A DNA stretch of 64,000 nucleotides. It comes from Rhizobium sp. Q54 (lineage in GTDB: Bacteria; Pseudomonadota; Alphaproteobacteria; Micropepsales; Micropepsaceae). This document shows positions 1-18,611 of this stretch, piece after piece. A program made the translations under genes and the position numbers. Numbering within the stretch: the stretch's first letter is position 1; each line of letters opens with the position of its first letter. The notes under the pieces were generated by a model that did not search any database, was not told where the DNA came from, and saw only the letters and a program-made list of their open reading frames with translations. The stretch is taken from contig CAMAPL010000011.1 in the NCBI GenBank assembly GCA_945860165.1, positions 1 to 64,000 on the forward strand, given 5' to 3'.

Positions 1-126
1 GAGCTACAACGCATCAAATTCTGATGTAGTTTAATCATAGCGAAACTCCCTAAATTTTTTTAATTAATGGCATTTTTGTTAGGTATAATCTCTTACATAA
101 AATATAGATTTAGTAGTTTAATTTTC

Positions 127-277
127 TCTCGCCAGATAAATTATCTCATCTGGTGAGAGGTATCGACTAGTGAGAGGTATCGACTAGTGAGATGTATCGA
201 CTAGTGAGAGGTCTCGTCTAGTGAGAGGTCTCGTCTAGTGAGAGGTCTCGTCTAGTGAGAGGTCTCGTCTAGTGAAA
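127..277. repeat. Tandem array of ~9 units, 17-bp period (15-bp dyad TCTCR-N5-TGAGA plus 2-bp spacer)
   Basis: Unit starts at 127 (degenerate), 144, 161, 178, 195, 212, 229, 246, 263; e.g. TCTCATCTGGTGAGA (144-158), TATCGACTAGTGAGA (x3), TCTCGTCTAGTGAGA (x3), TCTCGTCTAGTGAAA (263-277). Confidence 0.95.
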
Positions 278-443: not shown

Positions 444-1799
444 ATGAATCGTAAAGCACTGTTTGCATCTGCGTGGATAGTAGCGCTTGCGGCCTTCGTG
501 ACCGGAGCACAAGGCCAAGGGGAAAAGTATAATCTCGATGCGGGTGGGAAACCCTGCGCGGGCATCCTAGATCATGAGAAAAACTGCCTTGACCCGTCGA
601 TCACGCGCAACACGCTCGATCGCCCCTATCGAGGATCGTTGTACGATCCTAAGACATACAAGCCCAGCCAGATGCCGAATTTCGTGCGCAAGGGTCGAGA
701 TCTGATTTATATTGCAACGCCAGGCGGTGAATCTGACCAGCCCAAAATCTCTCACGGCGAGGGGATCATAGTTCTGGACCCCTCTACAAATTACGGCTTC
801 GTCAAGCGCATTCCGCTACAGGGCCTCCCGGCCTCAATGAAGCCGGAAGAGGTTAGCGCAATGATGGTCTCGCCAGTGACCAACTACGCTTACATCTCAA
901 CTCGCGGTCGCTTGATTGCTCTCGACCTGGCCACAGACAAAATAGTCTGGAGCAGGACGTACGATCCGATTAATACGTGCTGCGAACGCGGTGCAGTGAC
1001 GCCCGATGGACTTACACTGGTTGTGGGCTCAAACCTGCAGAATTTTCATCGCGTAATTGACGCCTGGACCGGTGAAGTGAAAGGCATAATTCCAACACCG
1101 CAGAGCCCCAATAATCATAATATGGTTATGTCGCCAGACGGAAAGACGGTATTCGCTGCGCCGAACGGAGTGACCCTCACGGTGGCGACGATGGAAACCA
1201 TGAAGCCGATAAAAACTATCACCTTCAGTGACCATGTAAGGCCGCTTGTGATTAATTGGGATGCAAGCCGTATCTATGCAATCCTGAACAATCTGTTGGG
1301 CTTTGAGATTGCAGATGTAAATTCTGGTAAGGTAATTAAGCGAGTAGAAGTGCCTGGTGAAATGTGGAAGGCGAAATGGGCCGATCCCAATCAGAATTTT
1401 CCCGGTGGTCACGGTGCGCCGTCGCACGCCATCGGTATGACACCTGACGAAAGCGAGCTTTGGATCGGCGACGCGATCAACACACAGCTTCTAGTGTTTG
1501 ACAATGAAGGCAAGGACAACTGGAAACTCAACATGACCAAATCCTTGAAGCTTGATCATGTTCCAGCCTGGATCACGATGGGCCTAGACGGCAAGCTCGC
1601 CTACCTGTCGTCCGGTGACGTAGTGGACGTGAAGACGCACAAAGTTGTGGGAAAATTACGCGACGAGTTTGGCCGTCTAATCTACAGCGAGAAGATTCTG
1701 CATATCCAGTTCAACGACAAGGGGCACGTGACCAGGGTAGTGGACCAGTTTGCCAATGGCATTCCGGAACTTGTCAAACGGAGAATGCTCTCTAAATAA
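444..1799 (+). CDS. Exported YVTN/NHL-type beta-propeller protein
   Basis: Signal peptide MNRKALFASAWIVALAAFVTGAQG; repeated propeller-like blades (TPDGLTLVVGS, SPDGKTVFAAP, TPDESELWIGD). Confidence 0.65.
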   Translation: MNRKALFASAWIVALAAFVTGAQGQGEKYNLDAGGKPCAGILDHEKNCLDPSITRNTLDRPYRGSLYDPKTYKPSQMPNFVRKGRDLIYIATPGGESDQPKISHGEGIIVLDPSTNYGFVKRIPLQGLPASMKPEEVSAMMVSPVTNYAYISTRGRLIALDLATDKIVWSRTYDPINTCCERGAVTPDGLTLVVGSNLQNFHRVIDAWTGEVKGIIPTPQSPNNHNMVMSPDGKTVFAAPNGVTLTVATMETMKPIKTITFSDHVRPLVINWDASRIYAILNNLLGFEIADVNSGKVIKRVEVPGEMWKAKWADPNQNFPGGHGAPSHAIGMTPDESELWIGDAINTQLLVFDNEGKDNWKLNMTKSLKLDHVPAWITMGLDGKLAYLSSGDVVDVKTHKVVGKLRDEFGRLIYSEKILHIQFNDKGHVTRVVDQFANGIPELVKRRMLSK

Positions 1800-3140: not shown

Positions 3141-4166
3141 TTACGTCGCCACCAGATATGACTTGAGATAGGTGCTCAGCGCCAACCGTATTTGCGCCTT
3201 GTGCGCCTCGGTGATCTCCCCGCCGCGGCGGCGGCTACCGCCGGCGGGCTGGCCGGGCACCGGCGGATTGACGCGCATGATCGCGTCTTCCGCGAAAACG
3301 CCGCGCGCCTTCATGACATACTGATTTGCATGCGGCAGAGAATTAAACGCCAGGAAGCGGCCAAAGGTGTCATAAGCTGCCTGCTTACGGTTTGCACGGT
3401 AGGAATTGAAGCAAACCTGAAGAAGATCCGCCATTCCGGTATAGGGCATTGTCCCCAAAAATCCGAGTTCCAGCTCGGCGAAGAATGTCATGCCACCCAT
3501 GCCAGAAAAATCTGTGAGTTTCCCTCCAGATTTCTGCAGCAGCCTCGTGACACGCTCCAGTGGCTCTTCGTCCGTTTCGTCTTTTACCGCCACGACTGCC
3601 GGGACCGCTTCTGCCAGCGCGACAAGACTATCCACACTGATATCTCCAACAGCCTGAACCATGATTGGCAATCCGCTCGCATCCGACAGCGCCTTGAAAT
3701 ATGCGACTACTTCGGAATTACTCGCGCCCGGAGGCGTCAGTGAAATGATCGCGTCGGCATTTAGGCTTTTCGCCTTCCTGGCATAGGCTTGGGAAGCGGC
3801 CGTGTTGAAGCCGATGGTCTGCACCCCCAGCATCAGCGCCGTATCACCCTTTACAGAGGCTAGTGCTTCCGCGCCGGCATGCCATTCTGCCTGCGTAAGG
3901 CTCTGCCAACCACTGGCATTCTGGGGCCAAGCCATCCCGGCGACTTTGCCCCGGTTCAGAAACTGCTGCTGCTTTACCATCGCATCGACATCAAAACTGT
4001 TGTCCGCCCTGCACGGCGTCCAGCCGATCGGAAATACGCCGGCCAGCGGCTTGCCATTCGGTGACTTTATGGCACTTGCAGCGGCGAGCGCCCCGCCACC
4101 GTTGACAGCGAGAAGACCTAGCGCTGCGCCCGTGTGCTGCAGAAATTTCCGGCGATTACCTGTCAT
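3141..4166 (-). CDS. Tat-exported dihydrodipicolinate synthase (DHDPS/NAL) family protein
   Basis: Tat-like MTGNRRKFLQHTGAALGLLAVNG; class I aldolase lysine context VVAVKDET. Confidence 0.75.
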   Translation of the reverse strand: MTGNRRKFLQHTGAALGLLAVNGGGALAAASAIKSPNGKPLAGVFPIGWTPCRADNSFDVDAMVKQQQFLNRGKVAGMAWPQNASGWQSLTQAEWHAGAEALASVKGDTALMLGVQTIGFNTAASQAYARKAKSLNADAIISLTPPGASNSEVVAYFKALSDASGLPIMVQAVGDISVDSLVALAEAVPAVVAVKDETDEEPLERVTRLLQKSGGKLTDFSGMGGMTFFAELELGFLGTMPYTGMADLLQVCFNSYRANRKQAAYDTFGRFLAFNSLPHANQYVMKARGVFAEDAIMRVNPPVPGQPAGGSRRRGGEITEAHKAQIRLALSTYLKSYLVAT

Positions 4167-4228
4167 ACAACTGTCCTTTCGATGTTTCCCGTCCGGGGAC
4201 TTAAGGACCCAGACATTTGCGGCCCAGT

Positions 4229-4262
4229 AAAAAAAAACCCCGTCGATTTCTACTCGACGGGG
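4229..4262 (-). terminator. Rho-independent terminator downstream of TonB receptor
   Basis: CCCCGTCGA / TCGACGGGG stem; on the minus strand followed by a T-run (A-run 4229-4237 on plus). Confidence 0.8.
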
Positions 4263-4306
4263 CCAATCCGGTAAGCAGAGAGCTTACTTGGAATTTTATT
4301 ATGCAA

Positions 4307-7219
4307 TCAGAATTGCTTGCGCAGGCTCATCACGGTGTAGCGTCCCAACGTCGATCCGCTCGCAACGATATAGGCGCCACCATTGCTCGCCTTAGCAGCA
4401 CCGCCCGAGAGATAGATCGGCGGGCTGGCGTCGGCAATGTTGTTCATCGTGACGCTGAATTCCGTATCGCTCAGCCACGGGGCCAAGTCGGCCAAGTTAT
4501 AGCTGACATGCATGTTGACCGGGCGGAATGATTCGATGCGCGCCTGCTTATACAGGGACAAGGCCTGGTTAAGGACGGGCGAAACGTTGAAGCCCGGGCT
4601 ATAATTCATCGTCACCCGGCCTGTCACAGGACCGACATTGGCCGCCAGGAACATGGTGGCGGCCGAGAGCGGAACGCTATACTTCACGAGATTGATGGGT
4701 TTTATGCCCGGGGCAGGCGTATTGTTGTTGGTCGAGTTGAAGGTGCCCGAAAATCCGCCCGACAGGGTGCCAAAATCTTCGATATCCGTCACGTAATTCA
4801 ACGCGATGTCCAGACCCTCGATCAACGCCTCGCCGAGATTGTTGCGACGCAGGTCATAGAGAATATAGGGCTGGTTTACGCCCGACGTATTGAAGGCCGA
4901 GGACAGATCCGGTCCAGGGAACCCGGTGGTAGCGACTTTTGCAGTTCCGTCCGCATTAAAATTAGTCGGATAGCGGGCCTGGACCTGGGCCAGGGTGGGG
5001 TTGAGCATAAAATACTGATTGTAGGCCCCACTGAACAGAACACTGGGGTTATTGAGGATCAGGCCCTGCTGACGTTGGAACTTGGTATGGAAAGCGGTGA
5101 CGCTGATTTCGAGGCCGGTCAGGTTTATGCCCAACTCGGTGGTGGGATGGAAATCGCCGCCGATCGACCAGGTCCTGCCGGTTTCTGGCCCCAGGAGCGG
5201 ATTTCCGCCCGGGGTGGCGATGGTGGGGCGCAGCGCGTCGGCAGCCGACGTGCCTAACGGCACGTTGGTGTTCGCACTGGTACGCTGGGCGCCATAGGAG
5301 AAACGCGTATCCGGCGCCGAGGTGTCGGCAAGGCTGGGCGCGACATACGAAGTACCATTGGTGGCACGGATGGTCAGAGCCGCGATGGGTTCATAGGTGA
5401 TACCCACTTTGTAGTTTGCGGTGTTGCCGAAGTCGCTGTAGTTGTCGAGGCGGCCCGAGACATTGAGGGTTAGGGCGCGCACCAACGGCAGTTCATTGTC
5501 CTTACCAACAATCGGGATGTTCACCTCGGCAAAGCCCGAATTGATAATGCGGTGCGGCCTGGCGATCGCCATCTGAGCGCCGGGCGGCGCACGCCCCGCT
5601 TCCGTACCGATCGGCCAGTTGGTGTTCCAATTGGCGACATAGTCTTCAAATCCCGACTGGCCGCCGATAGCGGCCTTCACCGCGCCGCCGGGCAGTTCGA
5701 ACAGCGTACCGGTTGCCGACCCACCCCACTGGGTCTGATGCTGAATGGCCTTCCCGTAATTCCCGGTATTCAGAATATTGTCGATAAGCAGAGAATTGCC
5801 AGCATTGAGATTGTAGGGGTTCACCGCATTGCCGGCGAGACCCGCGCTGGCGACCAGCTCGGGCGTCAGAACGCCGGCGACGGTCACCCGGCGCATCGAT
5901 TGAGACAACAGCGCCGTATTGATCCCTCTGTTGAAACCGGTGGTGTTGCTGCGGCCATAGTTTAAGGTCGCAGTTGCCTCCCAGTCACCGAACGGTAGGT
6001 CCACCGTCAGTTTGGGCGTGATCTGAAACACCTGGATGTTGTTGCGATCGGTGAGGCTGTTGCTGCCCCAGAAAGGACTGAAGTCAAAGGAAGCGTTATG
6101 GGTGGTTTCACCGTTAATGGACTGAAAATATGGATTGGTGGTGTCGATCGCGATATTTGTGGCGCTCACCATAGGGTTCACAGCCGAATTCAGGCGCGTG
6201 GACCAGAGAAGCTTGGTCGAAAAATCGACGCCCGGCATGATGCGCTGGTGGAACTGGCCGAAGAACGAATTCTGTTCTTCCCTGGGGAAAAGCGACATGG
6301 CGGAATTGGTGTCGCAACGATTGAGCGAACCCGCATTGGTTATGGAATTCAAACCGCCAAACGGACCCGCGGCAGCAGCCTTCAGCGAACCTGGCGTGAG
6401 GGACACCGTATTGCTGGTCAGGGCGTAGTTCTGGCCGCCGGCAGAGATGTTCGCCAGACCGCACGAGGTGCCGCGCGAGTCGCGGCCGCCGATGTCGGTC
6501 TTGTCCATCTTGGTATAGGGCCGGTTCCTGGCCATCAGGAAGGTATTTTCCTTGTGTTCGAACGCCAAATAGGCGCCGCCGCTACCCCAATCGGTACCGG
6601 CCATCATGGCGCCGTTGAAGGCGCTGTAGCCGTCGGCCGTGCCGACCGAGACATTGGCCCGGAAGCCCTGATAGGTATCGAGCGTCACGAAATTGATGAC
6701 GCCGGCGATCGCATTGGCGCCATAGATCGACGAGGCGCCGTCGGGGAGCACGTCCACTTGGCGCAGCACGATCGTCGGAATGACACCCGCGTCCGGCGTG
6801 GTCGCCAACCCGCTGACGCCCACCATGTTATGCCCGTCCAGCAGGAGCAGTGTCGATGAACCGCCGAGGATGGTCTGGGCAGGGTTATAACGGATCGAAG
6901 GCCGCACGCCGCCGATATTGATCGCGGTGGGCGAGACAGTCTGGGTGTTAAAGGTATTGGCAAGCTGGGGAATCTGGCCAAGGATTTCTTCCGTCGTGAT
7001 CGCGCCGGTGGACCTGATGGTGTTGGCGTCAACCGTAATCAGGTTCGTACCGCCCGGGGCGATACCCTTAATCGACGTGCCAGTGGCGGTTACGGTGACT
7101 TCTTCCGTCGCCGCGACCTGAGCCTGCGCTTGTCCCGCGAGTACTGTTGCCAGGGCGCCCAACGACGCGCCACACAAAAGTCTCTTGATGAAATGCACAT
7201 TGGCAGCGTTGAAATTCAT
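4307..7219 (-). CDS. TonB-dependent receptor
   Basis: Signal peptide ending AQAQ, TonB-box-like EEVTVTATG, plug motif, C-term aromatic-rich strand ending RKQF; start at MNFNAANVHF (7219) preceded by AAGGGGGA SD. Confidence 0.85.
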   Translation of the reverse strand: MNFNAANVHFIKRLLCGASLGALATVLAGQAQAQVAATEEVTVTATGTSIKGIAPGGTNLITVDANTIRSTGAITTEEILGQIPQLANTFNTQTVSPTAINIGGVRPSIRYNPAQTILGGSSTLLLLDGHNMVGVSGLATTPDAGVIPTIVLRQVDVLPDGASSIYGANAIAGVINFVTLDTYQGFRANVSVGTADGYSAFNGAMMAGTDWGSGGAYLAFEHKENTFLMARNRPYTKMDKTDIGGRDSRGTSCGLANISAGGQNYALTSNTVSLTPGSLKAAAAGPFGGLNSITNAGSLNRCDTNSAMSLFPREEQNSFFGQFHQRIMPGVDFSTKLLWSTRLNSAVNPMVSATNIAIDTTNPYFQSINGETTHNASFDFSPFWGSNSLTDRNNIQVFQITPKLTVDLPFGDWEATATLNYGRSNTTGFNRGINTALLSQSMRRVTVAGVLTPELVASAGLAGNAVNPYNLNAGNSLLIDNILNTGNYGKAIQHQTQWGGSATGTLFELPGGAVKAAIGGQSGFEDYVANWNTNWPIGTEAGRAPPGAQMAIARPHRIINSGFAEVNIPIVGKDNELPLVRALTLNVSGRLDNYSDFGNTANYKVGITYEPIAALTIRATNGTSYVAPSLADTSAPDTRFSYGAQRTSANTNVPLGTSAADALRPTIATPGGNPLLGPETGRTWSIGGDFHPTTELGINLTGLEISVTAFHTKFQRQQGLILNNPSVLFSGAYNQYFMLNPTLAQVQARYPTNFNADGTAKVATTGFPGPDLSSAFNTSGVNQPYILYDLRRNNLGEALIEGLDIALNYVTDIEDFGTLSGGFSGTFNSTNNNTPAPGIKPINLVKYSVPLSAATMFLAANVGPVTGRVTMNYSPGFNVSPVLNQALSLYKQARIESFRPVNMHVSYNLADLAPWLSDTEFSVTMNNIADASPPIYLSGGAAKASNGGAYIVASGSTLGRYTVMSLRKQF

Positions 7220-7241
7220 GGCGTCCCCCTTAAATTTTAAT

Positions 7242-7270
7242 AAGGTTTCGCACACGAAGTGCGAAACCTT
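7242..7270. repeat. Perfect 12-bp inverted repeat in the 5' leader of the TonB receptor gene
   Basis: AAGGTTTCGCAC-acgaa-GTGCGAAACCTT. Confidence 0.9.
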
Positions 7271-7330
7271 ACCTAGCTATGAAGGGATGCTAGAAATTCT
7301 CAAATCTGTCAAAAGTCTCGGGGGGGGGTA

Positions 7331-7345
7331 TCTCATAGAGTGAGA
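7331..7345. promoter_or_regulatory. Operator-like dyad TCTCA-TAGAG-TGAGA upstream of TonB receptor
   Basis: Exact TCTCA-N5-TGAGA, 112 bp upstream of ATG 7219; matches array at 127-277. Confidence 0.75.
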
Positions 7346-7386
7346 GATTACCCCCCCCCCCGAGCCTGTGACATGAGCCCCAAATA

Positions 7387-8421
7387 TTAAGAAAGTCCTG
7401 GCTGCTCTGGCGCTCGCTTGATCCACTTGTACGCGGCGACGGAATTTTTCCAAAAATACTTCTCGGCCGCCGCACGGCTTTTTCCGGAAAAATACTCCCG
7501 GACAAGGACAACAGTGTCGGGTACTTCTGAAACACCCACGGCGTTCGGCCAATCGCTGCCGAACACAACGCGATCTTCACCAAAATAGGTCATCAACATG
7601 TCCAGGCGCTCGCGATGGGCCGCCAGACCCCGGACAATCACGGGGGGCGCGGTCGGGAGCCTGGGCTGTGAGGACTGCTCCGCGGCAGGTGTGGGCCTTA
7701 CGGAGCCGGGCGGACGAACGGGATGCACGATCTGGGACAATTTCGCCCAGATGTTCTTGCGCTGCGAAATCTCTTTCAGGATCGCCTCGAACTCGGCCTG
7801 GTTTTCCGGCGAAGGATCGAACGCCGGCAAGTGATCCAGCACAATGCGCAATTCGGGAACCTTGTCGTTCACCCGGACAGCGGCCTGCAGCAGCGCGATA
7901 TTCTGGTTTGCCGTCTCCAGCACCAGGTCGTGCTGGGCCAGCAGCTTGAGGTTGTCGATGACCAGGACATTATCCGTCTGCTTGGGCAGGTCATAGGTCC
8001 AGAGATTGCCGTAGCGAATGCCGCGATACAGGGGGTTTCTGGCGAACCGCTCGAGATATTCGCCAAATTCCGGTTTTTCTGGCCTCAGATTGCCGACCGT
8101 ACCGACCATGATGGGTTCGGGCTGGATGGTCTCCAGCACCCAAAGATTGTCTTCTAGCCAGGGACTGGCATCGACTTCGATTACCCCCACGATCCCAAGC
8201 GGTTTGGCGATCTTGGCGTACATAGAGGGCAAGGCGACGCCCCCGGCAAAACCGCGACCGCCCTTGTAGGGAGCCCCCTGCGGACGATTGGCATCGAACA
8301 GATGGATGTGACAGTCGATGATAGGAATATCGTCAATCGTCGCGGCGCACGCAGGCGCGGCTGCCGCAGCAAACGCGGTTGCGGTCGTTCCGGCAAGAAA
8401 TTTTCTGCGACTGCAAGTCAT
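7387..8421 (-). CDS. Tat-exported amidohydrolase_2 family protein
   Basis: MTCSRRKFLAGTTATAFAAAAAPACA; metal-binding IIDCHIHLFD; C-term VVFGSDWPN. Confidence 0.8.
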   Translation of the reverse strand: MTCSRRKFLAGTTATAFAAAAAPACAATIDDIPIIDCHIHLFDANRPQGAPYKGGRGFAGGVALPSMYAKIAKPLGIVGVIEVDASPWLEDNLWVLETIQPEPIMVGTVGNLRPEKPEFGEYLERFARNPLYRGIRYGNLWTYDLPKQTDNVLVIDNLKLLAQHDLVLETANQNIALLQAAVRVNDKVPELRIVLDHLPAFDPSPENQAEFEAILKEISQRKNIWAKLSQIVHPVRPPGSVRPTPAAEQSSQPRLPTAPPVIVRGLAAHRERLDMLMTYFGEDRVVFGSDWPNAVGVSEVPDTVVLVREYFSGKSRAAAEKYFWKNSVAAYKWIKRAPEQPGLS

Positions 8422-8522
8422 TGCGGGCCATCACGATTCTTCAGGCGAGCACGGAATGCGCCAACCGCTTTGAAGCGTTCCCAGTACGTCCCTGCCTGTC
8501 AATGCAAATCGCAGATGCCGCC

Positions 8523-8537
8523 CCTCATATACTGAGA
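8523..8537. promoter_or_regulatory. Operator-like dyad CCTCA-TATAC-TGAGA upstream of amidohydrolase
   Basis: One mismatch to TCTCA-N5-TGAGA; 102 bp upstream of ATG 8421, in the intergenic gap. Confidence 0.6.
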
Positions 8538-8569
8538 GGGCCGCGCAAAGAATCCTCGCCGACGTTGCT

Positions 8570-10480
8570 TTATTCACCACCCGCTTGGAATGCCGCGGGA
8601 CTTTCACCACGTCGGGCCCGCGCCTGCATTTCGAGATAGGCAGCTTCAATGCCGCCGACAAGCCTGTCCATGTCAAACAAGGTTCCGCGGGCGCTTGCCA
8701 GTCGCCGGCGTATGTCAGACAGCCGGCTGCGATCCCGGGCCAGCGACAAAGCGATGTTTTCGTATTCCCCGGCTGTTGAAGCGACCAGCTCATCCAGTCC
8801 GGCATTTGCCAGAAGTCCAGCCGACACTCGGGAGACGAAACTTTGTCCCCTCAGCGTGAGAAGGGGAAGCCCGGCCCACAAGGCATCGCTGGCCGTGGCA
8901 TGGGCGTTGTAGGGATGGGTATCCAGAAACAGATCGGCCTGCGCCTGACGCCCCAGATGACGGGCAAAACTTTCCATCCGCCCTGCGAAATGAATGCGAT
9001 GCGCATCGATACCCCGCGCCGCCGCCTCGTTGCGGAATCGCGCATTCATGGCCGGCATGCCGTCGCGAAGCCAAAGAACGCTGCCGGGAACAGACCGCAA
9101 CACTCGCGCCCAGACATCGAACATCTGCGGTCTTATCTTGTGATTAGAATTAAAGCAGCAAAATACAAAGGCATCGGCTGGAAGCCCCACCTCTGCGCGA
9201 CTTACCCCCTCCGGTTCCGGAAGCACGGTGTCGCTCGGCCAGAAGGAGCCGGGCAACTGAACAATCTTTTCCGTAATTGCCGGCCCCAGCTCGAAAGGGG
9301 TCACATGGGCATCCCCGATAATGTAATCGACGAACCCGGCGCCGGTGGTTCCGGCATATCCCAGATAGGTCGCGATGACCGGGGCGGGACGAAACTTCAG
9401 GATCGCCGGGCGCCATCCCATCGTCTGTCCATTGAGGTCAACCAGTATGTCTATCTCAGCTTTATGGATCAGCGCTGCGGCGTCGCGGCTGCCAATGTGA
9501 CCAATATTGAAAAACCTGTCGCAGGCCTTGACAATACGCCGATGCATTGCGCTGTCGTCCCCTCGTCCGGTGGACAGGCCGATGACCTCAAAACGCGCCC
9601 GGTCATGGCGTTCCAGCAATCCCACTACCTGGGCGGCAACCGGATGGTCGCGGAAATCCGACGACAGATAGCCGATCCGGATCTTGTCGTGCTGATAGGC
9701 CCTGATTGCCATGGGCGCGATAACAGCGTCGCCCAATTCGGTATCAGCCAGGCTGCGCCGGGTGGTGAGTTCCGCGCACCGCCTCTGCAGCAAAGGATCG
9801 TCGCTCAGGGCCAACAGCGTCAACGGCGGAACCGTGGCCGAGCCGTCCTGAATGGCCAAAAACAGCCGGGGAAGAAGCCGCTCAACCGTTTCCCAATTGC
9901 AGGCGCGCAAGGCCGCCGTTGCCAGGCACCCCAGGATATCGCCATGGTTCGGATCGATCTTCAACGCCCTGGCCAGGATCTGCTCTGCCTCATCAAAGCG
10001 CTTCAGCGCCAACAGCATGATGCCGGCATTGTAGAGTGCCCGCGGATCGGAAGGCCGCAATTGCAGCACCCGCATGGTATTGTCCAGCGCCTCTTCGCTT
10101 CGCCCCAAAGCCTGCAAAACTCCTGCGCGGTTGTTCCAGGCGTCCGCCATTGTGGGAAATTTCGCGACGATGCAATTTAGAGCCGCCAGGGCATCCTGCC
10201 AGCGCTGCAATTGCGCAAGTGCGGTCGCCTGATTGTACAGAGCCGGGGCATGGCCGGGTTCGAATGCCAGGCAACGCGCATAGGATTCGACCGCCTCGTC
10301 CAGCCGGCGCAGCATGGCCAGTGCATTGCCGCGGCCATAGTGAACGGCGGCAACGTGCGGCGTCGTCAGCAGCGAAACATCAAAGGCGGCCAACGCGCCG
10401 GCAAAGTCTCCAGCTTCGTGCAGACTCGTGCCCTTGCGATAACTGTCTTCCGCGGCGCTCATCATCTCAGGTGCAAGCAC
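8570..10480 (-). CDS. TPR / SPINDLY-type O-linked N-acetylglucosamine transferase family protein
   Basis: N-terminal TPR repeats, then GYLSSDFRDHPVAAQVVGLLERHDR, FLDTHPYNAHATASDALWAGLPLLT (OGT catalytic motifs). Confidence 0.85.
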   Translation of the reverse strand: MLAPEMMSAAEDSYRKGTSLHEAGDFAGALAAFDVSLLTTPHVAAVHYGRGNALAMLRRLDEAVESYARCLAFEPGHAPALYNQATALAQLQRWQDALAALNCIVAKFPTMADAWNNRAGVLQALGRSEEALDNTMRVLQLRPSDPRALYNAGIMLLALKRFDEAEQILARALKIDPNHGDILGCLATAALRACNWETVERLLPRLFLAIQDGSATVPPLTLLALSDDPLLQRRCAELTTRRSLADTELGDAVIAPMAIRAYQHDKIRIGYLSSDFRDHPVAAQVVGLLERHDRARFEVIGLSTGRGDDSAMHRRIVKACDRFFNIGHIGSRDAAALIHKAEIDILVDLNGQTMGWRPAILKFRPAPVIATYLGYAGTTGAGFVDYIIGDAHVTPFELGPAITEKIVQLPGSFWPSDTVLPEPEGVSRAEVGLPADAFVFCCFNSNHKIRPQMFDVWARVLRSVPGSVLWLRDGMPAMNARFRNEAAARGIDAHRIHFAGRMESFARHLGRQAQADLFLDTHPYNAHATASDALWAGLPLLTLRGQSFVSRVSAGLLANAGLDELVASTAGEYENIALSLARDRSRLSDIRRRLASARGTLFDMDRLVGGIEAAYLEMQARARRGESPAAFQAGGE

Positions 10481-10646
10481 TTAAAGCTGGGCTTTCCATG
10501 CAAGGTCATTCCTATACCGAAGCGTTGAACTTCCCAACATTCCTCTAGACCGGATCTTTGCCGCATGGCCTAATGGGGTGGGCAACCAGCCGCTGCATAT
10601 GGAAGGTGCCCCGAGCACGTATGTAGAATTTCCCGATGGAGCCAAA

Positions 10647-11210
10647 ATGAAAAGGTCTGTTGCATGCGCCGTGCTGGGCGGCGTCCTTTTGATCCAGCCG
10701 GCATTTGGCGATACGCGGGACGACGTTTATGCAGCAGCGCAGCGATGCCGCATTCTCCAGGATGACCGTGGGTGGCTAGAATGCATCTACGGAGCCCAGC
10801 AGCCGATGCGCGCAAAATTGGGGCTGCCCCCTGCAACGGAAATTCAGCAACGCCTTGTTCCGCTCGCCGGTTTGTCACCGGCCATGGCAGCCGCTCCGCA
10901 AAGAATTCCGCCTTCTTCGCAACCCCAGCCTTCGGTGCAACCCCATCGCCGGGCGAGCTTGATGCAAATCCTTACCGGCAGCGCGCCCCCTGTGGCGGTC
11001 TCTGCCCTTGCATCCGTGCAATACAACAGCCAGGAGGCCTTTGTCGCCACCCTGCAGAACGGTCAGGTCTGGCGTCAGGTCAACGCGCTCGGCGAAAGAG
11101 CCCCGCTGAAGGTCGGAGCCAGGGTAACCATCACGCCGGGCGCCTTAGGCAGTTACAATCTGAAAGCGGACGGCGCGTCCCACACCTACAAGGTTGAGCT
11201 GAGATCGTAA
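10647..11210 (+). CDS. Small exported protein, paralogue of 37814-38368
   Basis: Signal peptide MKRSVACAVLGGVLLIQPAFG; CRILQDDRGWLECIYGAQQPMRAKLGLPP and NGQVWRQ shared with the paralogue. Confidence 0.6.
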   Translation: MKRSVACAVLGGVLLIQPAFGDTRDDVYAAAQRCRILQDDRGWLECIYGAQQPMRAKLGLPPATEIQQRLVPLAGLSPAMAAAPQRIPPSSQPQPSVQPHRRASLMQILTGSAPPVAVSALASVQYNSQEAFVATLQNGQVWRQVNALGERAPLKVGARVTITPGALGSYNLKADGASHTYKVELRS

Positions 11211-11387
11211 GCCTATGGATTGGCGTCAGTCTCAATGTCGATAAGTAAGCTCTAAAGAAATATCGCGCGCCTAATTTCGAGAGACGGGGCGCACTTGGCA
11301 TTTCTCCCGTCTAGCGAGAAATCCATGGTGAGATCTAGGGACGGCCAATGGGATGAAGAAGATCGGACAGAGTATGGTTGGCATCTT

Positions 11388-11702
11388 TTACAACCACATT
11401 ACCCGGAACTGCTCTAGCCGGTGGTTACTGTGGAGGGCTGGATCAGGGGAGGAAGGGTAGTCTTCCCACCCTTGGATACTACAAGACCTATAACTGCAAC
11501 CAACCCCCACTGCGAGCACACTGAGAAAAATAGTATTGTCACCCGCTTGAGCTTGCTTCACGCCGGTAGAAGTGCCGGCCAGCAGTGGGCCCAAGTCCCC
11601 AGCCAGAGCGGCTGAGATAGATGCTGAGTTAGATAAGGCCAACGCTACAAAGGTCGAAATAATAAGCATCTGCCATGTCCCCTTGCTGGTTTTGACCATC
11701 AA
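11388..11702 (-). CDS. Hypothetical small protein (weak)
   Basis: ORF with possible signal sequence only. Confidence 0.2.
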   Translation of the reverse strand: MMVKTSKGTWQMLIISTFVALALSNSASISAALAGDLGPLLAGTSTGVKQAQAGDNTIFLSVLAVGVGCSYRSCSIQGWEDYPSSPDPALHSNHRLEQFRVMWL

Positions 11703-11813
11703 TTCATGGCGATTTAAAAACGACCCTAACTAGGTACAGGTGCAGTTTGACACAGCTGAGCGGCACTCGCGTCCTGAATTTACGGACGGGAATGCGCATC
11801 CTGCAAAATAGTT

Positions 11814-12266
11814 TCAGGGCGTCATTGGAATCATCGCCGGCGGCTGTGGCGAAGTGAATGCGGTCATAAGCCAGTGGCTGTAGTTTGGGTTCGGTTTCCA
11901 TCCCGGCCTGCAGTCGCAGTCTGCCAAGAATTTCCAGAGAGTTTCTTGGGACCTCGATCTGACTTGACTATCCGTGACGCGTTTGGCGTCGCGATCTACC
12001 GCAAGCGCCCGCATCTCCGCCGCATATACTTCAAACGCATCCATCTTCGTCAAGTTGATAATCTTGGCAAAGCCGCTTTCGGCAGTCAATTGGCATGCTT
12101 GCCACTCGGAATAGGTCTTAAATTCTTTTGCGATCCATCTGGTTTTACAGGCGACAGTCTCCTGCTGCAGTCCGGCGGCAGCCATTGGCATGACGGATTT
12201 GTCGTAGCCGTCCGCGCAGCTTGCAAGCATCAACGCGAAAATGGTGATGGTCAGGATACGTCTCAT
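11814..12266 (-). CDS. Hypothetical lipoprotein
   Basis: MRRILTITIFALMLASCADG lipobox LASC. Confidence 0.5.
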   Translation of the reverse strand: MRRILTITIFALMLASCADGYDKSVMPMAAAGLQQETVACKTRWIAKEFKTYSEWQACQLTAESGFAKIINLTKMDAFEVYAAEMRALAVDRDAKRVTDSQVRSRSQETLWKFLADCDCRPGWKPNPNYSHWLMTAFTSPQPPAMIPMTP

Positions 12267-12411
12267 GCCTATGCCTCCCATTCTACGAGCAGGTTCACTA
12301 TATTGCCAATGTCCCAAAGCCGTTCTCAAAGATGCGCGGCGATAGCGAGCGAGATGCGAACACTGCTGTTGATGCGGCCGAAATTATACCAGCAAGCGCA
12401 AAGGCTGTCAT

Positions 12412-12600
12412 ATGGACATGATTATCAATGTTCTTGAAATGAACGGCCATCCGTTGGGCAAATCGCTTAAAGTGCTGGCGCATGATCCGGTTATGCTTTT
12501 CAACATAGCTGCTCCAAACCAAGGCTTCGCGCGGCTTTCCCAGGCCGAGTTCTCATATCCGTTGAAGCTGGGCTTGAGGGACCTTGAGATGAAGGCAGGA
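12412..12600 (-). pseudogene. Degenerate IS1-family-like transposase C-terminal remnant
   Basis: SYVEKHNRIMRQHFKRFAQRMAVHFKNIDNHVH resembles the SYVERxNLxxRxxxRRxxRxxxxFSKKLENH transposase motif; no intact ORF. Confidence 0.45.
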
Positions 12601-12646
12601 TTAGCTTAACCGAGCTTCATCCGAACCGGGTGCAAGCCAACCGGCC

Positions 12647-12661
12647 TCTCAATAGGTGAGA
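12647..12661. promoter_or_regulatory. Operator-like dyad TCTCA-ATAGG-TGAGA upstream of enolase-superfamily gene
   Basis: Exact TCTCA-N5-TGAGA, extended by one more pair (C...G); 80 bp upstream of ATG 12742. Confidence 0.75.
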
Positions 12662-12741
12662 GACTGGCGCGCGGCGCAGGTTAGTGTTCGGTTACGCGCT
12701 ATTTAAGATCACGCTGTAGCACCACAAATCCGAGCAAACTC

Positions 12742-14025
12742 ATGATCATCGACAAGACGGATCGTCGCCGCGTGATGGCAGCCCTTTCCGCCGGCGGCGC
12801 GCTTCTGGTCGGCGGCGCTGCAGAAGCCAAAACCGCTATGACAGAGCCCCTCAGAAAGCTCAAAGGCGAAGCGCAGAAAATTGTCGTCAAAAGCGTGACC
12901 ACGTTTGACGTGCTGGTTCCCCCAACAGGTGCCGCGCCCCCCACCCGAACCGGCGGACCGCCGGGGCGCACCAATGTCACATGCGTGGAAACGGCGAATG
13001 GTGTGAAGGGCTATTCGTTTCTTGGCTCGACAGCGCAGCAGATTTCCGCCGCCCAGCCGGTGCTGGTGGGCCAAGATCTTTTCGAAATTGAAAACCATCT
13101 GAAGAACGGCCTTATTCGATGGGGCGGAATCGAAGAGGCGATGTGGGACGCGATTGGAAAGATCGCAGGAACATCCGTCGCCCATCTTCTGGGAGGCAGC
13201 GCGCCCGATCAGCCGGTCTATGTCACCTATGTCTGGCCCGGAACAAACGGTCAGGAGACCATCACGCCCAAGCAGCAGGCGGAGCAGGCCAAGCTCCTCA
13301 GAGCGGCGGGCTTCCGGGCTATGAAGATCCAGGTGTTCCGGCGGAACTCTCAGGTGGACGCCGATGCCTGCGCCGAAATCCTTTCCGTAGGCGGGCCGGA
13401 CTTCCGGGTCATGGTCGATCGCACCGCAGACCGCTCACCCAATGGTCTTTGGAGCTATGACCAGGCGCTAGCCGCAGCGCATGCGCTGGAAAAGGCGGGT
13501 TGTTATTGGCTGGAAGAGCCTCTAGCACGCGACGATTATGAAGGGCCCGCGCGCTTGCGCCGCGAAAGCGGGATCATCATTGCAGGCGGCGAAGGTTATC
13601 ACGGACTGGAACCCTACAAGCAGTGCCTGATTCACGGCACATACGAAATTCTCCAACCCGAACTGCGCCTGATAGCCGGCATCTGGACCGCGAGAAAGGT
13701 AGGTGTGCTGGCTGAAGCCTGGGGACTTAAGACGGCACCGCACGGGATCTCGGGATTGGCCTGGGCCGGCCGCCTGCAAGTCGCGGCGGCGATGGGTTCG
13801 GTATACCAGGAAATAGCAGTTTTGAATCCGCCGTGGCTGCCGGAAGACTATTGCAGGCCCTACCTGCCACTGCTGTACGGCGAGCAACCTTTCAAGTTTG
13901 AAGGTGGCAGGTGCCGTGTACCACCATATCCCGGGCTGGGATTGAACGTCGACGAGAAGGCGTTGGCGCATTATCGCGTCGAAGGTCTACAGGGCATTGG
14001 CCCTCCCGCCCCTCCGCCCCCCTGA
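12742..14025 (+). CDS. Mandelate racemase/muconate lactonizing enzyme (enolase superfamily), probably exported
   Basis: DRRRVMAALSAGGALLVGGAAEA Tat-like N-term; AMKIQVF, WLEEPLARDDYEG, IIAGGEG, ILQPELR motifs. Confidence 0.8.
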   Translation: MIIDKTDRRRVMAALSAGGALLVGGAAEAKTAMTEPLRKLKGEAQKIVVKSVTTFDVLVPPTGAAPPTRTGGPPGRTNVTCVETANGVKGYSFLGSTAQQISAAQPVLVGQDLFEIENHLKNGLIRWGGIEEAMWDAIGKIAGTSVAHLLGGSAPDQPVYVTYVWPGTNGQETITPKQQAEQAKLLRAAGFRAMKIQVFRRNSQVDADACAEILSVGGPDFRVMVDRTADRSPNGLWSYDQALAAAHALEKAGCYWLEEPLARDDYEGPARLRRESGIIIAGGEGYHGLEPYKQCLIHGTYEILQPELRLIAGIWTARKVGVLAEAWGLKTAPHGISGLAWAGRLQVAAAMGSVYQEIAVLNPPWLPEDYCRPYLPLLYGEQPFKFEGGRCRVPPYPGLGLNVDEKALAHYRVEGLQGIGPPAPPPP

Positions 14026-14095
14026 CATCCTGAGCATCATAGAACTGATGCCTGCCCGTCATTTTTCAGATATAAAAGAACATCCGTCAGAATAG

Positions 14096-14740
14096 ATGGC
14101 AAACAGAGGACCGGACGAAATGCCAATTGTTTCTCACGAAGTTTATCCGCTTTTTGTCGAACCCTATTTTCGGGCGAACGTCGCCGGGACCATCACGCCT
14201 AAGCAGATCGCCTTCATCAAGAACCTGAAGATGGTCAACAATATGGAGAATCTGATTTCGGAGAATCTCTATATTTTCGAGGAGCCAGAACTCAGGAGCA
14301 TCAAGGACGCCGTGCAGGACGTACTTGACATCTATGCCCGCGAAGTGATGTGCATTCCCCAGAAGCTCTATGTTACCCAATCATGGTCACTGACCTGCAA
14401 TTCCCAAGTCGGCATGCACGGCCATTCGCATTCCAACTCGGTACTGTCGGGATCGCTGTATTATTGTGAGCTGCCTTCGCCGACCGCGAGCATGATATTT
14501 ACCCGCCATTTAAGCTATCAGCAGATAGACTTGGCTCCCGATGCCAGCAAGCGCAACGTATACAACACTCCGATAAACAGGATCATACCAAAACAGGACG
14601 ACATCATTCTTTTTTCTTCGCGCCTGACCCATCTGGTTGAGCAGAACGCATCGAGCGTTCCCCGTCACTCGATCGCGTTCAATAGCTTCGTAAAAGGAAG
14701 ATTGGGAAATTATCGCGATGTGTCGGAACTCGTACTTTAA
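14096..14740 (+). CDS. Putative 2OG-Fe(II) oxygenase
   Basis: GMHGHSHSNSVLSGSLYYCELP (HxH..NSxxSGxxY) and distal H/R in SSRLTHLVEQN...PRHSIAFN. Confidence 0.7.
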   Translation: MANRGPDEMPIVSHEVYPLFVEPYFRANVAGTITPKQIAFIKNLKMVNNMENLISENLYIFEEPELRSIKDAVQDVLDIYAREVMCIPQKLYVTQSWSLTCNSQVGMHGHSHSNSVLSGSLYYCELPSPTASMIFTRHLSYQQIDLAPDASKRNVYNTPINRIIPKQDDIILFSSRLTHLVEQNASSVPRHSIAFNSFVKGRLGNYRDVSELVL

Positions 14741-14788
14741 TTTTGATCGGGCGGATGCCGCATTTTCCTGCCCGTATGCCCGTAAAAG

Positions 14789-17287
14789 GTGAATAAGTTC
14801 ATGGCTGCCTCGAGTATAAAAACACTAATCGTCGCCGGTATCGTCGTTGCAGGGCTCGGATCTGCGGCCTGGATAAATGCTATTGCGCAAAACGCGCCTC
14901 GCGCGGCGGCGCCCCTCTCTGCCGCCGATGAGGTCAGCGCGCTTCAGCAGATCAACGCCACCTGCGCCGGCTGTCACGGCCAGAATGCTGCGGGGGGCGA
15001 TCGCGCGCCTTCGCTGATCGATTCCACATCCTTGCGCAAAATGGATGCCGCGCAGATAGCGGCGATCATAACCGGTGGAACACCGCGCGGTATGCCGCCT
15101 TTCACCAACCTTCCCACCGCACAGGTCGCCAATATTGCGGCCTGGATACATTCCAAGAACCTGACTAACGCCGTCCAGGGTACGCCCGAACAGGTCGCAG
15201 CTGGCGAGACGTTTTTCTTCGGAGAAGGAAATTGTGCCGGCTGCCATATGGTGCGCGGCAAGGGCGGATCGAACGGCCCGGATCTTTCGGCGCTGGCTGC
15301 CAATCTGACACCGACCGAAATCACTGGATACCTGGACAATCCAACCGATCGCATGGGTACTAAGCGGACCGCTGCTTGTCCGGGCTGGGCTTTCTGCCCT
15401 GATATGCAGTGGACGGTTATCAATGTGCGCATGCGCGACGGCACAAGCCTGCGGGGTTTTGCGCGCGCCGAGGCCGAGCACAGTCTGGCGGTACAAAGCT
15501 TTGATGGAAAAACCCATCTTCTGACCGCCAAAGATTATGAAGGTTATGCGCGCGAGACCCAGTCCTACATGCCTTCGTTGAAAGCGACGCCGGCCCAGCG
15601 CAGCGCCCTGGTGGCCTATCTCGGGAGCTTGCGCGGTGTGCCGCTTGGCCCGTTGGCCCGTGCTGCGGGTTTCAGCGCCGCAGACATGGATGCGGCCGTG
15701 CGGCCCAAAAAAGGGGAATGGCCTTCTTATAATGGCGGCCCTGACGGCAATCGCTACAGCGCGCTCGACCAGATCAACGGGGGCAATGTCTCGCGGTTGA
15801 AGGCGGCCTGGCTGTTTTCACCGGGCGGCCTGGGGCTGGAAACGACCCCGGTCGTCATGGACGGCATCATGTACGTCACAGGCGCACAGCAGGTTTGCGC
15901 TCTGGATGCACGCACGGGCCTTCGAATCTGGTGTGCGCCGCGCGTGTCGGGCCAATCCGTCCGTGCCGGCGGCGCACCCATTGCGCGCCCTGGCGCCGGC
16001 GCCGCGGCGTCCGCCTCGCCTGCCGCGGCATCGCGACCGTTTGGCGGCGTCGCCAGCGGCGTGGGTCCCAATCGCGGTGTCGCGGTGCTGGGTGACCGGG
16101 TCTTTTTCGAGACGGATGATTCCTATCTGGTCAGCGTGAACCGGCGCACCGGCGGGGTTGTTTGGGTGGTACCGCTGACAGACCCCAAATTCCCGGGGCT
16201 TTATTACTCGACCGTTGCACCGATGATCGTGGGGGATCTGGTCGTGGCTGGTGCTTCGGGCGGAGGGCCCGGCCCTCGCGGATTCCTTGTCGCTTTCAAG
16301 GCTTCCACCGGCGAGCTTGCCTGGCGGTTCTGGACCATCCCGACGCCGGACGAACCGAACGCGAAAACCTGGAAAGGCAATGCGCTGCGTATCGGCGGCA
16401 CAGGTGGCGCGGGCACCTGGATGACCGGCTCCTACGATCCGGACGCCAAAATCCTCTATTGGGGAACCGCCAATCCTTTGCCTTCCAACGATGGCGATGA
16501 ACGTCAGGGACGAAATCTGTATGCCAACACCATTCTCGCGCTCGATCCGAAGACCGGAAAGCTGAAATGGTTCTACCAACCCACGCCGCACGATCTGCAT
16601 GACTGGGATGCGACGGCGCCGCTGGCGCTGGTTGATGCCAACTATCAGGGCCGGCCGCGCAAGCTTCTGATTCAGGCCAATCGCAACGGTTTCCTGTATG
16701 TGCTGGACCGCATCACCGGTCAGCTGCTTTTCGCCAAGCCCTTCGTCAAGAAAATGAACTGGGCAAGTCATATTGGCGCCGACGGCATGCCTGTGCTTCT
16801 GCCGGACTATGCTCCAACCGACGAAGGCCATGTGAAGTGTCCGGCGGTGCGCGGGGCGACCAACTGGTTTTCCACATCCTACAATCCTGGCACAGACCTG
16901 TACTATGTCATGGTCGCCGAAGATTGCGGCTATTACCGCAAGACTGGACGGCAATATGGCCCCAACCCCGACCTGAAAGACCCCGGCAAGCGTTTCCTGC
17001 GCGCCCTGAATATCCATGACGGATCACTGGTGTGGGAAAAGCCCTTATCGGGCTCGCATGAGGCCAACTATTCCGGCGTGCTTTCGACGGCGGGTGGTCT
17101 AGTATTCGGCGGAGAAACTGCGGGCGGTTTTGCGGCTGTCGATGCCAGGACCGGCAAGACGCTGTGGAGTTTCCCCACCAACGACTCCTGGCGGTCATCA
17201 CCCATGACCTACATGCTGGACGGCGAGCAGTATGTCGCTGCCGCGGCAGGCGGCAACATCATCTCGTTCAAGCTGGGTGAAAGATAG
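14789..17287 (+). CDS. PQQ-dependent dehydrogenase with two N-terminal cytochrome c domains
   Basis: CAGCHGQN and CAGCHMVRG heme sites before PQQ propeller repeats (WPSYNGGPDGNRYSALDQIN, HDLHDWDATAPLALVD); GTG start or ATG 14801. Confidence 0.85.
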   Translation: MNKFMAASSIKTLIVAGIVVAGLGSAAWINAIAQNAPRAAAPLSAADEVSALQQINATCAGCHGQNAAGGDRAPSLIDSTSLRKMDAAQIAAIITGGTPRGMPPFTNLPTAQVANIAAWIHSKNLTNAVQGTPEQVAAGETFFFGEGNCAGCHMVRGKGGSNGPDLSALAANLTPTEITGYLDNPTDRMGTKRTAACPGWAFCPDMQWTVINVRMRDGTSLRGFARAEAEHSLAVQSFDGKTHLLTAKDYEGYARETQSYMPSLKATPAQRSALVAYLGSLRGVPLGPLARAAGFSAADMDAAVRPKKGEWPSYNGGPDGNRYSALDQINGGNVSRLKAAWLFSPGGLGLETTPVVMDGIMYVTGAQQVCALDARTGLRIWCAPRVSGQSVRAGGAPIARPGAGAAASASPAAASRPFGGVASGVGPNRGVAVLGDRVFFETDDSYLVSVNRRTGGVVWVVPLTDPKFPGLYYSTVAPMIVGDLVVAGASGGGPGPRGFLVAFKASTGELAWRFWTIPTPDEPNAKTWKGNALRIGGTGGAGTWMTGSYDPDAKILYWGTANPLPSNDGDERQGRNLYANTILALDPKTGKLKWFYQPTPHDLHDWDATAPLALVDANYQGRPRKLLIQANRNGFLYVLDRITGQLLFAKPFVKKMNWASHIGADGMPVLLPDYAPTDEGHVKCPAVRGATNWFSTSYNPGTDLYYVMVAEDCGYYRKTGRQYGPNPDLKDPGKRFLRALNIHDGSLVWEKPLSGSHEANYSGVLSTAGGLVFGGETAGGFAAVDARTGKTLWSFPTNDSWRSSPMTYMLDGEQYVAAAAGGNIISFKLGER

Positions 17288-17317
17288 GCGGGCCGCGCCA
17301 GGAAAACCTGCGTGTCA

Positions 17318-17340
17318 CCGCTTCCCTTGCCGGGAAGCGG
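17318..17340. terminator. Intergenic hairpin between convergent genes
   Basis: CCGCTTCCC / GGGAAGCGG followed by GC-rich second hairpin; no clear U-run. Confidence 0.4.
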
Positions 17341-17375
17341 TCGGCGGCGGCTATCGCCGCCGCCTTCGCAAATCA

Positions 17376-18305
17376 TCAGGCCGACATGCGGAAGCGGAAC
17401 ATCCAGCCCGCATCGTCGCAGTTGTACATATGGCCGTTCCACAGTTTTGCGCCGTGGATGACCGGGGAATCCGACGGCAGTTGCAGCCGCTCAGATATCT
17501 GGCCGGTGGTGGCGTCGTGTAGGAAGAAGGCATTCAGGTCAGAATCCGAGGCCCAGAAGTGGGTCTTGGCATCGTTGGTCCAGGTCATGTCATGCGGACG
17601 GCTGCCAGCCGTCTGGATCAAGTTCTGAACAACCCATGTGTTCTTGTCGATGACGAAGATCATCCGGGCGGGCGGCACGGCCACATAGAGCAAATTGCCC
17701 TTGACCAGGATGCAGTGCGCGCCGGTGCCTACGGGGCCGGCTTGGACACTGTCGTCCTGAAGGCCCGCCCCTCGGCGACCGCCCGAACTCAGGGTGCCGG
17801 CGACCGGCGGCGGGGGCTTCGGCGGTTCGGGATAGGCGGGTTTCAAGTTGGTACGGCGGCCCGGCACGTCGGAAACGACCTTGTAAATCTGGCCAGCGCC
17901 CGGGGTCGAGTATTTGCCTTTCAGCTTGCCGGTGCGCTCATCAACCGCGATGATCAAGCGGTTGTATGTCGAGCCGACCCAGACCGTGTCGCCGTCGACG
18001 GCAATGCCCGAGGCCGAACGAACGCCCTCGCACACATACTCGCGGATCAGGACGCCGTTTTGCGGATTGATCAGGGAGGCATAGTTTTCTGGGCCCTGGT
18101 CCATGATCCACATGCCCTCGCTCGTGACGTCCAAACCGTTTGGCTTGGTGTGCGGGGTCTTGTAGATGACCTCGATGGCGCTGGAGGCGATGTTGCGGGT
18201 GCGAATGCCCGACAGGTTCGGCAGGGCCGCAGAAGCCAGTTGCGGGAAAGCCGCAATCGCTGGCGCAGATGCCGCCATTGCCAGAATTCGCCGACGATCG
18301 ATCAT
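17376..18305 (-). CDS. Exported beta-propeller (SMP-30/NHL-like) protein
   Basis: MIDRRRILAMAASAPAIAAFPQLASA signal; GIAVDGDTVWVGSTYNRLIIAVDERTGKL propeller motif. Confidence 0.65.
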   Translation of the reverse strand: MIDRRRILAMAASAPAIAAFPQLASAALPNLSGIRTRNIASSAIEVIYKTPHTKPNGLDVTSEGMWIMDQGPENYASLINPQNGVLIREYVCEGVRSASGIAVDGDTVWVGSTYNRLIIAVDERTGKLKGKYSTPGAGQIYKVVSDVPGRRTNLKPAYPEPPKPPPPVAGTLSSGGRRGAGLQDDSVQAGPVGTGAHCILVKGNLLYVAVPPARMIFVIDKNTWVVQNLIQTAGSRPHDMTWTNDAKTHFWASDSDLNAFFLHDATTGQISERLQLPSDSPVIHGAKLWNGHMYNCDDAGWMFRFRMSA

Positions 18306-18416
18306 GGTGTTTCCTCTTATATTATTGCTTGTTAAACGAACAAAACCCGTATTGCGGGTATGGTAGACGCGAGCCATTTGAGCGTCAACGAAGCCGGGAG
18401 ATGGCGGCGCCCCATC

Positions 18417-18431
18417 TTTCACCAGATGAGA
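18417..18431. promoter_or_regulatory. Operator-like dyad TTTCA-CCAGA-TGAGA upstream of 17376-18305
   Basis: Reverse complement TCTCATCTGGTGAAA differs by one base from array unit 144-158; 112 bp upstream of ATG 18305. Confidence 0.7.
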
Positions 18432-18611
18432 TAAAGACGTGCCTGTGTGGAGCGCAAATGTCCCGAAATATGGTGTGACGCGAGCCTGAGTTCGGCGCTG
18501 CCTTCATACTAACTTGCCCGGTGCATAAGCGTCGGGTATTTTTTCTTGCCGTAACGGCACCAGCGCGGCGGGAACTATAGCAGCTTTATTCATGAACCAA
18601 CCGCCAGGCGA

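Follow-up and report, generated by a model that had tools for sequence, protein, structure and literature searches.

A graded array of eight operator-like dyads, predicted to be read by an IclR-family regulator, between divergent receptor and propeller genes

Regulators that bind short dyads in repeated copies are familiar from the met boxes of MetJ and from the ArgR boxes, which serve other protein families than the one considered here and have their own repeat pitch. In the IclR family, which includes repressors, activators, and dual regulators, tandem sites have their centers 18–22 bp apart, mainly 19–21 bp (about two turns), consistent with dimers bound on the same face of the helix (PMC8222616). 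For group 1 of this family the consensus is YCRY-N3-RYGR, and the outer bases of the published subgroups are TGT, GTT, WTT, or NGT with the mirror image (PMC8222616). A further arrangement, the three-box sites of PcaU, PobR, and HmgR, combines a palindrome with extra half-sites nearby; a direct half-site repeat outside the palindrome serves there as the third box and is required for PcaU binding (PMC8222616).

The array that we describe resembles the tandem IclR-family operators of the comparative study PMC8222616, for which TtgV is the solved model, in its palindrome, whose core follows YCRY-N3-RYGR strictly in part of the sites, and in the adjacent placement of repeated sites, and its likely regulator is related to the PcaR/PcaU/PobR type. 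In contrast to the known tandem pairs, with 18–22 bp between sites on the same face, it comprises eight units whose 17-bp pitch carries them around the helix, and its outer bases, TCT..AGA, differ from those of the published subgroups (PMC8222616). Because the 17-bp pitch lies outside the 18–22 bp range, an ordinary cooperative tetramer across neighboring units is not expected. The likeness to the three-box sites extends to the palindrome with additional half-sites close by, whereas in the array whole dyads repeat, with half-site centers 7 bp apart between neighboring units and 10 bp apart within a unit. An operator with an IclR-family regulator, and tandem pairs of such operators, are already known; what sets the present case apart is that a single lineage has eight copies, graded in strength and pitched at 17 bp.

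Eight dyads of unequal strength at a 17-bp period

The DNA analyzed here (the window) covers the opening 64 kb of contig C11, which belongs to a genome of 2.48 Mb in 42 contigs, and the named relatives matched by its first gene are uncultured Alphaproteobacteria. An array of eight 15-bp dyads with a strict 17-bp period occupies positions 144–277 (no strand assigned), as delimited by Tandem Repeats Finder and a mismatch scan. Tandem Repeats Finder reported positions 144–275 with a period of 17, 7.8 copies, 93% matches, and no indels, in agreement with the strict period that an initial sequence-only reading had claimed. When the window was scanned for TCTCGTCTAGTGAGA with up to three mismatches, 12 matches were returned, against 0.42 expected from shuffles, the largest of which gave 3. 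Full units start at 144, 161, 178, 195, 212, 229, 246, and 263, in the order TCTCATCTGGTGAGA (unit 1, 144–158), TATCGACTAGTGAGA three times (units 2–4, 161–209), TCTCGTCTAGTGAGA three times (units 5–7, 212–260), and TCTCGTCTAGTGAAA (unit 8, 263–277); the blocks that had been described initially, three units followed by three plus one variant, match the unit sequences over 161–277. The original count of about nine copies has to be lowered to eight because the element at 127–141 (TCTCGCCAGATAAAT) has a left half-site only, with no right half-site, and scores 7.0 bits, which is at noise level. It pairs mainly with unit 1, as an inverted repeat whose arms lie at 126–137 and 148–159. The right half-site TGAGA is kept in seven of the eight units. 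A 17-bp pitch turns each unit by about 223 degrees relative to its neighbor, which bears out the statement that neighbors lie on different helical faces; the best helical phase is found between units five apart (85 bp, 34 degrees).

Site strength was estimated with a symmetrical matrix built from 22 sites of other species, none of them from this genome. Unit 1, a perfect TCTCA-N5-TGAGA palindrome, was the top-scoring operator of the 64 kb at 25.4 bits, followed by three dispersed sites at 7331 (22.6 bits), 12647 (22.3 bits), and 18417 (21.0 bits). This ranking by a relatives-only matrix upholds the proposal that the array is operator-like and tied to dispersed single sites, and the near identity asserted between unit 1 and positions 18417–18431 amounts to 14 of 15 bases, on the minus strand. 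Units 5–7, at 16.4 bits, are intermediate: they exceed the best of ten shuffles (14.3 bits) and come close to the 16.2 bits of the lone site at the corresponding place in the nearest relative. Units 2–4, in which the left half-site is degraded (9.1–12.0 bits), and unit 8 (11.1 bits) are weak and within noise, which makes four of the eight. Since the matrix scores differ between units, the array is graded, with one strong, three intermediate, and four weak sites, and the notion of equal sites was not sustained. A dispersed match at 11305 (TCCCGTCTAGCGAGA), which scored 6.5 bits, was rejected as noise.

To the left of the array is the start of a divergent TonB-dependent receptor gene (1–38, minus strand) that continues on contig C3 (G000:C3:183354-186398), and downstream of it is a beta-propeller gene (444–1799, plus strand) with a weak resemblance to TIGR03866 (PQQ-catabolism-associated propellers), far below the cut-off. 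The last 149 bases of C3 (G000:C3:186346-186494) are identical to positions 1–149 of the window. On the strength of these identical terminal bases, the two contigs very probably adjoin, which would place an iclR gene about 10 kb from the array and make the catabolic cluster continuous across both contigs. The junction falls inside unit 1, and because the assembly breaks inside the array the number of eight copies is provisional; the break fits copy-number variation, and a branch beyond the shared stretch would look identical.

The dispersed motif and its candidate regulator

Four perfect copies of TCTCA-N5-TGAGA were found in the genome (C3:178934; C11:144, which is unit 1; C11:7331; and C11:12647) versus none for the reversed control, and among nine relatives there were 35 perfect sites versus one for the control. 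With one mismatch allowed, the genome gave 18 matches, including C3:175874, C11:8523, and C11:18417, versus 7 for the control; since chance matches are common at this level, only those in the promoters of this cluster were used. The sites precede genes for a TonB-dependent receptor, an amidohydrolase, an enolase-superfamily dehydratase, a propeller-like protein, and a PQQ-type dehydrogenase, as well as the dmpF-dmpG-iclR operon. Within the window, TCTCATAGAGTGAGA (7331–7345) lies upstream of the TonB-dependent receptor gene (4307–7255, minus strand), with TTGACA 18 bp downstream of the operator, and a one-mismatch operator (8523–8537) lies upstream of the amidohydrolase gene (7387–8421, minus strand), with TTGACA 20 bp downstream. 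Further along, TCTCAATAGGTGAGA (12647–12661) lies upstream of the enolase-superfamily dehydratase gene (12742–14025, plus strand) and TCTCATCTGGTGAAA (18417–18431, minus strand) upstream of the propeller-like gene (17376–18422, minus strand; likely start near 18305). Dehydratase-type and amidohydrolase-type genes likewise have an upstream site in G039 (locus L140), which indicates that part of the regulon is conserved. Judged by these sequence comparisons, the dyad is predicted to be, and very probably is, a genuine regulatory site. A literature search for the TCTCA/TGAGA motif with IclR and for natural operator arrays returned nothing relevant.

Several features accompany the dispersed sites. 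A long G-run/C-run hairpin (7317–7364; DNA fold -18.9 kcal/mol, z -5.8) between the amidohydrolase and TonB-dependent receptor genes has the operator at 7331 in its loop. A second inverted element of the GATGAC...GTCA type occurs between operator and promoter at L049:12935, L136:7141, L133:6421, and L143:9582; the operator beside this element precedes dmpF or, in L133 and L143, iclR. The catabolic gene set, seen at L049:7624-12870 and at 3141–19817 of the window, comprises PQQ-type dehydrogenases, TonB-dependent receptors, a KdgD-like protein, an enolase-superfamily dehydratase, lactonase-like proteins, and DmpF/DmpG.

The IclR-family regulator gene (G000:C3:176044-176871) is the last gene of the dmpF-dmpG-iclR operon. 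Its product scored above the cut-offs of PF09339 (IclR HTH) and PF01614 (IclR C-terminal domain) and reached 136.5 bits against TIGR02431; since the cut-off of that model is 284.75, we regard the protein as a relative, not a member, of the PcaR/PcaU/PobR family. Genomes of the genus with an IclR orthologue had a mean of 2.9 perfect sites and those without had 0.64 (Mann–Whitney p = 4e-5; the p-values in this work treat genomes and sites as independent, which related species are not). Of 12 genomes with a close iclR orthologue, this one included, 10 have a perfect site about 0.16 or 2.1 kb from it (among the relatives, 9 of 11), against an expectation of about 0.1; in G008 and G015 the orthologue is present with no perfect site on the same contig, which counts against the link. 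Eight orthologues share the same segment, PEASGYR, in the recognition-helix region, and only the orthologue at 48% departs from it. The group 1 core YCRY-N3-RYGR is matched strictly by 17 of 28 dispersed sites, the other 11 not being strict matches, and on reading the array it is matched by units 1 and 5–8 and missed at one position by units 2–4. The outer bases of the site, TCT...AGA, place it outside the published IclR subgroups (PMC8222616); the IclR-like assignment is therefore made from the core and the gene linkage, and the site is not filed in a published subgroup. The PcaR/PobR-like IclR protein is the most likely reader of TCTCA-N5-TGAGA.

The position of the operator relative to promoters was analyzed for 27 dispersed operators read toward their genes, with at least 5 of 6 matches defining a TTGACA-like box. 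Ten of the 21 boxes fell in 3 of the 70 offsets, 18–20 bp downstream of the operator, and 10 of the 27 sites have a box there, relative to predicted transcription starts; the associated p-value of 5e-9 is optimistic because the offsets were chosen after the sequences had been seen. With TTGACA taken as the -35 box, the operator at these sites is centered near -62. Class I activator sites are classically centered near -61.5, upstream of the -35 box. Since the operator lies upstream of the -35 box, where one is recognizable, and not over the promoter, activation appears more likely than repression. Most dispersed sites are within about 20–160 bp of the start codon. At the promoters of the array itself, no TTGACA-like box was seen by reading at 18–20 bp from either outer unit.

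Relatives and the origin of the array

The nearest relative, G056 (the same sequence as L007), whose propeller protein is 84% identical, has one site, TCTCGAATAGTGAGA (16.2 bits), in the same divergent intergenic region between receptor and propeller genes. Compared with L007, the intergenic region has gained 101 bp in length here, about as much as six 17-bp units. MAFFT aligned unit 8 with the single site of L007, and the distances to the propeller ATG are 166 bp for unit 8 and 163 bp for the L007 site. Immediately upstream of the gene, no such site is present in more distant homologues (about 60%). Searches of other genomes ruled out an array common to relatives: none was found with a loose 17-bp pattern in 99 other genomes, with any spacing of 0–25 bp in 289 other genomes (290 searched), where only two-site matches were returned, or with up to three mismatches in 95 other genomes of the family. 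The last search gave one match, in G040, which looks like a three-mismatch chance match because reversed controls give as many.

Two-copy operators were observed in two other genomes. TCTCATCTAATGAGA occurs twice, in identical copies 18 bp apart, in L128 (G017:C370, 115–147, at 115 and 133), and TCTCGCTTYGTGAGA occurs twice, 22 bp apart, in L141 (G030:C9, 12183–12219 of the locus, at G030:C9:264182 and 264204). They share with the array the same palindrome in tandem and differ from it in having two copies only, at other genes, and no array. Their occurrence in G017, where the duplication is independent of the array, and in G030, another species, indicates that duplication of the operator recurs in the genus.

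The single site of the nearest relative, together with the lack of an array elsewhere in the 290 genomes, makes the expansion look recent and local. A comparison of copy number with relatives had been among the checks suggested initially, and it favors local duplication, with one site at the same place in the nearest relative. Slippage is inferred as the mechanism from the blocks of identical neighboring units, which likewise point to a young array and are no demonstration of selection. That a functional operator was expanded is well supported.

Possible roles of the array

The explanation that we favor, with moderate confidence, starts from a functional IclR-family operator, which slippage in this lineage would have expanded into the array by duplicating 17 bp again and again. 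Its TCTCA-N5-TGAGA sites would be read by the PcaR/PobR-like IclR protein, whose gene is about 10 kb away and which would probably be an activator, the site at many dispersed targets being centered about 62 bp before the predicted transcription start. The array, placed between the divergent TonB-dependent receptor and beta-propeller genes, would influence both promoters. Unit 1, the nearest to the receptor gene, would be the strong site and do most of the specific work; units 5–7, keeping the strength of the relative's single site, would be bound less than unit 1, and units 2–4 and 8 would be weak. It is likely that the regulator binds unit 1 and, less so, units 5–7, and influences both divergent promoters, and the likeliest effect would be more regulator held near both of them. 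Cooperativity, and the wrapping, coating, or titration suggested in the initial reading, are hypothetical effects for which the analysis gave no support. A bolder version likens the graded array to a multi-copy upstream activating sequence in a bacterial setting, with a copy number that varies by slippage and so tunes two divergent promoters within a population; it is speculative and, in our judgment, rather improbable.

The strongest rival, to which we give a little under an even chance, shares the operator identity with the favored explanation and holds that neutral slippage accidentally multiplied a single working site, either unit 1 or the ancestral site, the extra copies having no measurable effect. 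Blocks of near-identical units are what fresh slippage would produce; units 2–4 have lost left half-site bases (9–12 bits) and unit 8 scores 11 bits; no relative searched has an array; and the assembly breaks inside it, as an unstable copy number could cause. Retention of TGAGA in seven of eight units and of the relative's score in units 5–7 would speak for function, yet both are compatible with neutrality in a young array. In another alternative the regulator is a repressor, and the array, through looping or coating, makes it repress both divergent genes more tightly. Repressors and dual regulators are found in the IclR family (PMC8222616), and most dispersed sites are about 20–160 bp from a start codon, but the recognizable -35 boxes have the operator 18–20 bp upstream, an activator position, and we consider this alternative unlikely.

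The array, counting all units, makes up roughly half of the near-consensus sites of the genome, and it could act as a sink in which eight sites titrate the IclR protein and set the threshold of the regulon's other promoters; however, half of its units are weak and relatives with the same regulon have nothing comparable, and we hold such a role to be very unlikely. The strict short period and near-identical units would also suit a structural or plasmid-type element (iterons, a partition site, or a CRISPR-like repeat) unrelated to transcription. Against this, unit 1 ranks first with a matrix derived from promoter sites in other species, the orthologous intergenic region of the relative holds a single site, spacers are absent, and the neighbors scanned include no replication or partition gene, so that this origin has hardly any probability.

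The comparison outlines an IclR regulon of TonB-dependent receptors, PQQ-type dehydrogenases, an enolase-superfamily dehydratase, a lactonase-like amidohydrolase, and DmpF/DmpG, whose operator and promoter layout was not found in the literature searched. With a bacterial operator that appears to have multiplied recently, a relative that has a single site, and a likely regulator in hand, the effect of operator copy number on a natural promoter becomes directly testable, and the regulon supplies built-in single-site controls. If it is true that copy number tunes expression, the finding would be of greater interest.
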